Part shown: piece by piece, positions 29,490-30,264 of the stretch | How the letters are laid out: each line of letters opens with the position of its first letter | How positions within the stretch are numbered: position 1 is the first letter of the stretch | Source of the DNA: Deltaproteobacteria bacterium RIFOXYD12_FULL_56_24 | GTDB lineage: Bacteria > Desulfobacterota > Desulfobulbia > Desulfobulbales > Desulfurivibrionaceae | Reading direction: 5' to 3' | Length of the DNA stretch: 44,065 nucleotides | Assembly (NCBI GenBank): GCA_001799285.1 | Contig: MGTD01000049.1 | Span: forward strand, 1-44,065 | Translations under genes and position numbers: made by a program | Notes under the pieces: model-generated | The model's input: only the letters and a program-made list of their open reading frames with translations | Databases searched by the model: none | Told to the model about the DNA's origin: nothing

Positions 29490-29517
29490 TTGACAAGTGG
29501 CAAAATAATTGTATAAT
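29490..29517 (+). promoter_or_regulatory. Consensus sigma-70 promoter for tRNA-Gly and possibly rimP operon
   Basis: A perfect TTGACA (29490-29495) and a perfect TATAAT (29512-29517) are spaced by 16 bp. The tRNA begins 20 bp after the -10, leaving a very short leader. Confidence 0.85.
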
Positions 29518-29537
29518 CTGCGAAATTATTCGGGCCG

Positions 29538-29612
29538 GCGGGAATAACTCAGTGGTAGAGTGTCAGCTTCCCAAGCTGAAGGTCGCGGGTTCGAATCCCG
29601 TTTCCCGCTCCA
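29538..29612 (+). tRNA. tRNA-Gly (anticodon CCC)
   Basis: Acceptor GCGGGAA pairs with TTCCCGC. The anticodon stem TCAGC/GCTGA holds loop TTCCCAA, with CCC at 29570-29572. The T arm is CGGG-TTCGAAT-CCCG. Discriminator T and CCA (29610-29612) are encoded. Confidence 0.96.
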
Positions 29613-29717
29613 GTTCAGGAGCCGTTGTTCCAGCGGTTTGCCTGCTGCTGAAAAGAAAACGCAATGTTTTCTTGTTGGGTGTAGTGCTCCAGTAAGCGGT
29701 ATTGTTTCGTATTAAAG

Positions 29718-29747
29718 AACCGATCATTCCGATCCGGTTATTTTTTT
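29718..29747 (+). terminator. Rho-independent terminator 1 after tRNA-Gly
   Basis: AACCGATC pairs with GATCCGGTT through two helices separated by a bulged C, followed by TTATTTTTTT-like sequence ending at 29747. It is the first of two hairpins between the tRNA and rimP. Confidence 0.65.
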
Positions 29748-29748
29748 G

Positions 29749-29774
29749 AAAGTGGGCCCTGGCCCGCTTTTTTT
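29749..29774 (+). terminator. Rho-independent terminator 2 before rimP
   Basis: AAAGTGGGCC (29749-29758) pairs with GGCCCGCTTT (29761-29770) with one G-T, then T residues run to 29774. It ends 16 bp before the rimP start codon, so transcription must read through it or start very close to rimP. Confidence 0.75.
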
Positions 29775-29790
29775 ATTGGTATACTGGGCT

Positions 29791-30264
29791 ATGGAAGAAG
29801 AGGCGATAGAATCACCCCTGGTTCGGCGTTTGACGCAGCTTGCCTTGCCGGTGGTTGCGGATTTCGGCTGTGAACTGGTCGAGCTGCAGTTCAAGCGCGA
29901 GGCCCCCGGCTGGCTTCTGCGTCTGATCATCGATAAAGAAAATGGGGTCGGCATTGATGATTGCAGCAGGATCAGCCGGGAATTTGCCCATCTTCTTGAG
30001 GTGGAAGATCCCATTGAACAGGCATACAGCCTCGAGGTTTCTTCGCCAGGCCTTGACCGGCCTTTGAAAACAGAAAGGGATTTCGTCCGTTGTCGGGGGA
30101 AAAAGGCCAAGGTTGTGCTTAGGGAGCCGATTGACGGGCAGAACCCGTGTATTGGCCTGATTGAAGAGGTGAATCAGGAGTCGGTAACTCTGCGCACCGA
30201 CCAAGGTATAATAGAAATTCCGTTTGCCCGGATGAAAAGGGCTCGTCTGTTTATTGAATTTTAA
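29791..30264 (+). CDS. rimP: Ribosome maturation factor RimP
   Basis: The 157-residue protein helps mature the 30S subunit. The N-terminal alpha/beta domain contains CELVELQFKREAPGWLLRLIIDKENGVGIDDCSRISREFAHLLEVEDPIEQAYSLEVSSPGLDRPL, the classical RimP pattern, followed by an SH3-like C-terminal domain. ATG 29791 (MEEEAIESP) is chosen because the frame further upstream runs through the terminator. Only a weak ribosome site is visible. It heads the rimP-nusA-infB operon. Confidence 0.92.
   Translation: MEEEAIESPLVRRLTQLALPVVADFGCELVELQFKREAPGWLLRLIIDKENGVGIDDCSRISREFAHLLEVEDPIEQAYSLEVSSPGLDRPLKTERDFVRCRGKKAKVVLREPIDGQNPCIGLIEEVNQESVTLRTDQGIIEIPFARMKRARLFIEF

Follow-up and report, generated by a model that had tools for sequence, protein, structure and literature searches.

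A rimP-leader-type hairpin between tRNA-Gly(CCC) and the rimP-nusA-infB operon, also present before nusA where no rimP is detected

The locus described here lies in a stretch of 44,065 nt, referred to below as the window, in which the nuo genes extend to position 29434 (Pfam, on the last nuo gene), upstream of a block composed of a promoter, tRNA-Gly and rimP. The tRNA promoter, the tRNA, the terminator hairpin and the rimP operon are all on one strand, and the features are:

29490..29517, + strand: sigma-70 promoter of the tRNA/leader transcript, TTGACA-16-TATAAT, 12/12 consensus letters
29538..29612, + strand: tRNA-Gly(CCC), CCA encoded (ARAGORN; Rfam RF00005, 74.6 bits)
29653..29673, + strand: hairpin 1 of the leader, AAGAAAACGCAATGTTTTCTT (fold; kept in 13 genus loci)
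29718..29747, + strand: hairpin 2, bulged stem AACCGATC/GATCCGGTT followed by T7 (-7.3 kcal/mol; the first terminator of an earlier note on this DNA)
29748..29774, + strand: hairpin 3, intrinsic terminator of the rimP-leader type, GAAAGTGGGC-CCTG-GCCCGCTTTTTTT (terminator scan, fold, covariance model)
29777..29785, + strand: extended -10-like element TGGTATACT, 5 nt before the rimP ATG (read from the sequence)
29791..30264, + strand: rimP (Pfam RimP_N and RimP C-terminal domain)
30360..31652, + strand: nusA (Pfam NusA_N, KH_5, S1)
31663..31947, + strand: ylxR (Pfam YlxR)
31944..34679, + strand: infB, encoding IF2 (Pfam IF-2, IF2_N)
34679..35092, + strand: rbfA (Pfam RBFA)

The earlier note had described a consensus promoter before the tRNA, a tRNA-Gly(CCC) in front of rimP, a second hairpin 16 bp before rimP and a rimP-nusA-infB operon downstream. 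All of these were borne out by the searches listed above, the operon also including ylxR and rbfA, and 16 nt separating the end of the T run of hairpin 3 from the rimP ATG (29791). The spacer between tRNA and rimP (178 nt, 29613-29790) holds the three hairpins and, taken as a whole, is more structured than its shuffled versions (z -4.38, 0/200). The second tRNA gene of the window, tRNA-Ala(GGC) at 15239-15314, is flanked by what we take, from the translations of their reading frames, to be mreB-like and murein-ligase-like genes.

A consensus promoter scan of 28800-30600 returned three promoter-like sites against 1.4 expected, the one at 29490-29517 being the sole site with all 12 consensus letters, and none was found between the tRNA and hairpin 3 by the same scan of 29613-29790, whose reach excludes an extended -10 lacking a -35. 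We searched 38 genomes of the genus, family and order and found rimP in 33 of them, with 35 matches in total. Counting the window, 29 of the 30 order loci examined have a same-strand tRNA-Gly(CCC) upstream of rimP; in the thirtieth (L017) N letters in the assembly break up the tRNA-Gly gene, and this locus was scored as tRNA-less and stands outside the 29 order loci used for the promoter and -10 counts. In a phylum sample of rimP loci picked regardless of the hairpin motif (89 of 90 judged, L255 being dropped for too little upstream sequence), tRNA-Gly(CCC) was present on the same strand within 700 nt at 46/89 loci, and no other same-strand tRNA was found at rimP in the 89. A promoter with at least 10 of the 12 consensus letters precedes the tRNA in 27/29 order loci and in 28/41 tRNA-Gly loci of the phylum sample, a level reached by 25 of 1450 shuffled sequences. 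To judge by these comparisons, tRNA-Gly(CCC) has long stood next to rimP in this phylum. Its presence beside rimP across order and phylum means that it is not a replaced metY, and the idea that an Escherichia coli-like layout was retained here with a different tRNA is therefore not upheld, only the second hairpin being shared with other phyla. With the link present at roughly half of the sampled phylum loci, a tRNA at the head of a nusA operon is not solely an enterobacterial feature.

Among the 30 tRNA loci inspected in the window's own genome (41 matches), Gly(CCC) was found once, and a CAU tRNA resembling the E. coli metY sequence is located on another contig (locus L227). The window's tRNA-Gly(CCC) matches the tRNA-Gly(GCC) of its own genome in 65/76 columns, with the acceptor and D-arm letters in common, and the Gly(CCC) of six other order loci in 61-63/76 columns, as if it had undergone partial conversion without leaving its place.

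The upstream two hairpins are features of the genus. Hairpin 1 (29653-29673) has no T run behind it, and its stem persists across 13 genus loci, two of its pairs having changed on both sides. Hairpin 2 (29718-29739, then T7) has a folding energy of -7.3 kcal/mol (z -1.34), is equalled by 17 of 200 shuffles and was not listed by the consensus terminator scan. Its stem is conserved in the 13 genus loci, window included; since the length of the T run, like its distance from the stem, varies among them, hairpin 2 is no conserved terminator, and as a terminator it is weak and genus-limited. Of the two terminators proposed in the earlier note, therefore, the second has the look of a strong intrinsic terminator (-14.5 kcal/mol, 0/200) and the first, with its variable T run, does not stand as such. 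The loops of hairpins 1 and 2 are near-invariant in the 13 loci (GCAAT or GCAAC, and ATTCC, respectively) amid diverged spacer sequence, as if they were bound by something.

Hairpin 3 (29748-29771, with T7 at 29768-29774) is of a different order, its fold being matched in stability by none of 200 shuffles (z -3.54). A covariance model built without the window's genus detects it with 38.7 bits (E 1.6e-5), and its shared form is AAGTGGGC-loop-GCCC(A/G)CTTTTTT. The pattern used for the relatives, AAGTGGG-N3..14-CCCGCTTTTTT, occurs in 31 of the 38 genomes at 32 places, and all 32 lie upstream of rimP at a distance of no more than 250 nt; the same pattern reversed gave one match. Of the seven relatives without the pattern, five gave no rimP match and two have a variant stem. 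One relative (G006, contamination given as 6) has two rimP loci, on contigs C58 and C134, with the hairpin at both, which likely comes from a mixed assembly. The stem pairs covary, one of them appearing as U-A, U-G and C-G, and GGG/CCC changing to GAG/CTC, and such compensating variation fits an RNA element. In the alignment and the covariance model the motif-picked letters owe their stem conservation to construction, and the unselected view is given by the places of the relatives' pattern, the motif-independent phylum loci and a blind terminator search.

Across the phylum sample, the same pattern was found in 32 of 198 genomes, 24 of them outside the order. For the 20 of these 24 that were fetched (four were left out), rimP lies within 900 nt in 17 and at 1281 nt in one, and the remaining two matches are elsewhere. 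The form with CCCAC is more widely distributed (59/198 genomes), and 57 of its 59 non-duplicate places are at rimP, the sixtieth place being the reverse reading of a palindrome; 46 places were matched to coordinates by eye and 11 came from the loci read. The exceptions are one place elsewhere (G095:C5) and one (G263) with tRNA-Gly upstream and no rimP detected before the contig end. A control pattern with permuted stem matched in five of 198 genomes, none on a contig bearing rimP. At the 89 motif-independent loci the strict motif was present in 42 and some form of it in 63, compared with 3 and up to 11 on the reverse strand. When terminators were sought without regard to stem sequence, a candidate appeared within 250 nt of rimP at 85/89 loci, with 64/445 in Markov resamplings and 25/89 on reverse strands, the latter count being raised by palindromic hairpins. 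A terminator with a GGG...CCC stem is present at 72 of the 89 and absent from 17, some of the 72 having differently built stems (e.g., L249 and L309). In family f20, the hairpin is about 430-1280 nt from rimP in three genomes (L071, L073 and L330, the first being the same DNA as L109) and about 110 nt in a fourth locus (L072), which suggests an inserted sequence or gene between attenuator and operon.

An alternative explanation is insulation: hairpin 3 would do no more than terminate the tRNA transcript, and the operon would be expressed as a leaderless rimP mRNA from TGGTATACT at 29777-29785. The earlier note had held that a separate rimP start site below both hairpins, if it carried all expression, would speak against read-through, and the genus does have a sequence candidate for one: the extended -10 pattern TGNTATANT is present in 13/13 genus loci, as TGGTATACT or, in one, TGGTATATT (TGGTATAYT form), always 5 nt before the rimP ATG. 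No -35 was seen for the element at 29777-29785, and no Shine-Dalgarno sequence was seen before the rimP ATG, whereas nusA has AGGAGA. In the genus, this candidate could thus yield a leaderless rimP transcript that bypasses both hairpins. However, the element is absent from all 16 other order loci, in 38 of the 154 loci that bear the motif 30 nt or less separate the end of the T run from the start of the rimP profile, leaving little room for a promoter below it, and an insulator would need no stem sequence common to several phyla. We consider insulation an unlikely though not negligible account of the hairpin.

Such a common stem sequence is indeed found. A collection of species genomes was scanned with AAGTGGGC-N3..8-GCCCRCTTTTTT, giving at least 116 stretches, of which 80 are listed as loci, and among the matches listed 69 of 80 loci head a nusA operon, 58 of them with the hairpin before rimP and 11 with it directly before nusA. 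NusA is encoded behind rimP in 56 of the 58 listed loci, the other two ending at a contig edge. Titles among these 58 include Acidobacteria, Nitrospira, Rokuibacteriota, Gammaproteobacteria, Alphaproteobacteria, Solirubrobacterales, Latescibacterota and KSB1, and the neighbouring sequence of the remaining 11 of the 80 listed loci yielded no rimP and no NusA. The listed loci of Desulfogranum japonicum (L125) and Desulfacinum hydrothermale (L096), both cultured, have tRNA-Gly(CCC) together with the hairpin in front of rimP. Because the loci were picked by the pattern, they show presence outside the phylum, not frequency; moreover, ten of the 80 listed loci are the same DNA as loci of the relatives or of the phylum sample, so that the counts are not independent (L124, for example, is the same DNA as L020, from the window's own family).

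No tRNA was found in up to 500 nt before the hairpin at the listed rimP-linked loci titled as other phyla, with the exception of two gammaproteobacterial ones that have tRNA-Met. This bears on a third explanation, that the tRNA acts as the sensor, the acceptor strand of tRNA-Gly forming an antiterminator with the 5' arm of hairpin 3. In the window, CCCGCT does occur both in the 3' strand of the tRNA and in the 3' arm of the hairpin. Nevertheless, outside the order the CCCGC arm occurs at two loci with the tRNA and one without, and CCCAC at 22 with and 21 without. With the matching arm unassociated with the presence of the tRNA, and the listed loci of other phyla keeping the hairpin without any tRNA-Gly, the tRNA was rejected as antiterminator partner, and a sensing role for it is barely credible.

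The 11 listed loci with the hairpin directly before nusA belong to nine Opitutae, one planctomycete and one Chloroflexi, and were called by phmmer in ten cases and by eye in one (L101), with Pfam applied to four. A whole-genome search for RimP_N detected it in none of the nine such genomes searched (L101 and L152 lie outside the nine, and genome completeness was not given), the same search being positive in 10 of 14 control genomes. In the Opitutae, 19-22 nt separate the end of the hairpin from the nusA ATG at eight of nine loci, and 30 nt at one. Eight of the nine have a TTGACA box beginning 57-60 nt upstream of the hairpin, the other having just 33 nt of upstream sequence, and at this distance the transcript would leave little room for an antiterminator. 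The infB gene follows nusA in all five Opitutae loci tested. By eye, a CACTTT- or CACTCTT-like stretch is seen a few nucleotides before the AAAGTG arm in most of the nine (L085, L101, L103, L117, L137, L152, L156, L158 and L160), which could pair with that arm to form a different, small hairpin. On their upstream side, the four loci tested with Pfam are each flanked by a DUF2851 gene.

These loci bear on which protein would read the hairpin. That it is RimP and not NusA, a possibility raised in the rimP-leader section of Naville and Gautheret (PMC2965389), agrees with the leading position of rimP at 58 of the 69 listed operon-head loci. The hairpin nevertheless stands directly before nusA at 11 listed loci, with RimP detectable in none of the nine genomes searched, and we regard RimP as a highly improbable reader. 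Retention of the hairpin at nusA in genomes without a detected rimP makes NusA a better candidate than RimP, and the rimP-less cases point to NusA, or IF2, as the probable regulator. Alternatively, IF2 might be both the regulated product and the sensor, with NusA acting only as general terminator machinery; infB lies behind nusA in the window and in the five Opitutae loci tested, so that the two proteins are not separated by these loci. It is NusA, however, that is a termination factor, and we know of no link of IF2 to termination, which leaves IF2 a very improbable sensor.

We infer termination at hairpin 3, read-through feeding the operon, and NusA as the sensor. From the tRNA-Gly promoter, one transcript would run through the tRNA into the leader and end at hairpin 3, where many polymerases would halt, giving pre-tRNA and a short leader. 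A fraction of them would pass the hairpin into rimP-nusA-ylxR-infB-rbfA, this fraction would set the expression of the operon, and NusA would most likely set the fraction by promoting termination at hairpin 3. Control of the operon by read-through, perhaps through NusA, is a reasonable reading of the sequence and the one with most support. That the leader is an attenuator at which NusA favours termination, making the operon subject to repression by its own product, has in our estimate a probability of about two in three. The terminators that depend most on NusA are weak, and the strength of hairpin 3 counts against a role for NusA. In the literature, NusA lowers the expression of the E. coli operon (PMC2965389), and in Bacillus subtilis NusA is autoregulated through NusA-stimulated termination in its own leader (PMC12288461).

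More tentatively, and with the balance of probability somewhat against it, hairpin 3 may be an ancient RNA signal recognised by NusA, in which the stem sequence itself is read, as opposed to any hairpin, and the nusA unit is the sole constant partner across bacteria; in the phylum it would often be fed by the promoter of tRNA-Gly(CCC), coupling the supply of tRNA, NusA and IF2. NusA is an essential transcription factor in model bacteria. A hairpin that stands before nusA with no detectable rimP constitutes a natural experiment separating NusA from RimP, and the arrangement promoter-hairpin-nusA is a minimal system for the recognition of the stem by NusA.

Among known systems, the E. coli metY-rimP region with its t1 and t2 terminators resembles the window in the order of tRNA, hairpins and rimP and in the G-rich 5' arm of the second hairpin. 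It differs in that the first gene there is tRNA-Met, whereas the window has tRNA-Gly(CCC) in the place of an initiator tRNA-Met, and in that the first hairpins are unlike in sequence. The parallel with metY drawn in the earlier note thus survives at the level of layout and fails for the first hairpin, which is not the E. coli T1. Consistent with this, the gammaproteobacterial rimP leader (RF01770), a model of two tandem terminators, gave no match in the window at the gathering score, nor up to E 10, E. coli itself matching with 102 bits as positive control; E. coli T2 reaches a score of only 16.2 bits (E 0.91) with the covariance model of hairpin 3. The NusA-stimulated termination in the nusA leader of B. 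subtilis has the mechanism that is proposed here, and the passages of that report on the leader mention no tRNA (PMC12288461).

The closest system is the rimP-leader, characterized in the corresponding section of Naville and Gautheret (2010; PMC2965389) as a short terminator with a GGGc...gCCC stem and a T run and no visible antiterminator, located 4-130 nt before rimP-nusA-infB and specific to that operon. The same section proposes NusA-responsive termination in the leader, leaving the reader open between NusA and RimP. The window has a GGGc(...)gCCC stem with a T run at 29748-29774, and its 16 nt to the rimP ATG are inside the 4-130 nt range; specificity for the operon is seen in the 32/32 places of the relatives, in the 69/80 listed loci of the wider scan and in the 0/5 of the control stem. 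By these features of its sequence and placement, hairpin 3 is the attenuator that Naville and Gautheret described as the rimP-leader, a very widespread kind that is already known. The window differs in the co-directed tRNA-Gly(CCC) that precedes the hairpin and in hairpins 1 and 2, which are genus features, and the rimP-leader section of that paper mentions neither rimP-less cases nor tRNA-Gly. No report of either was found in the open-licence literature searched, although some of these lineages may be among the species that the supplement of that paper lists. Hairpin 3 thus joins an established class of leaders, to which the version with tRNA-Gly(CCC) and the rimP-less cases are apparently new additions.
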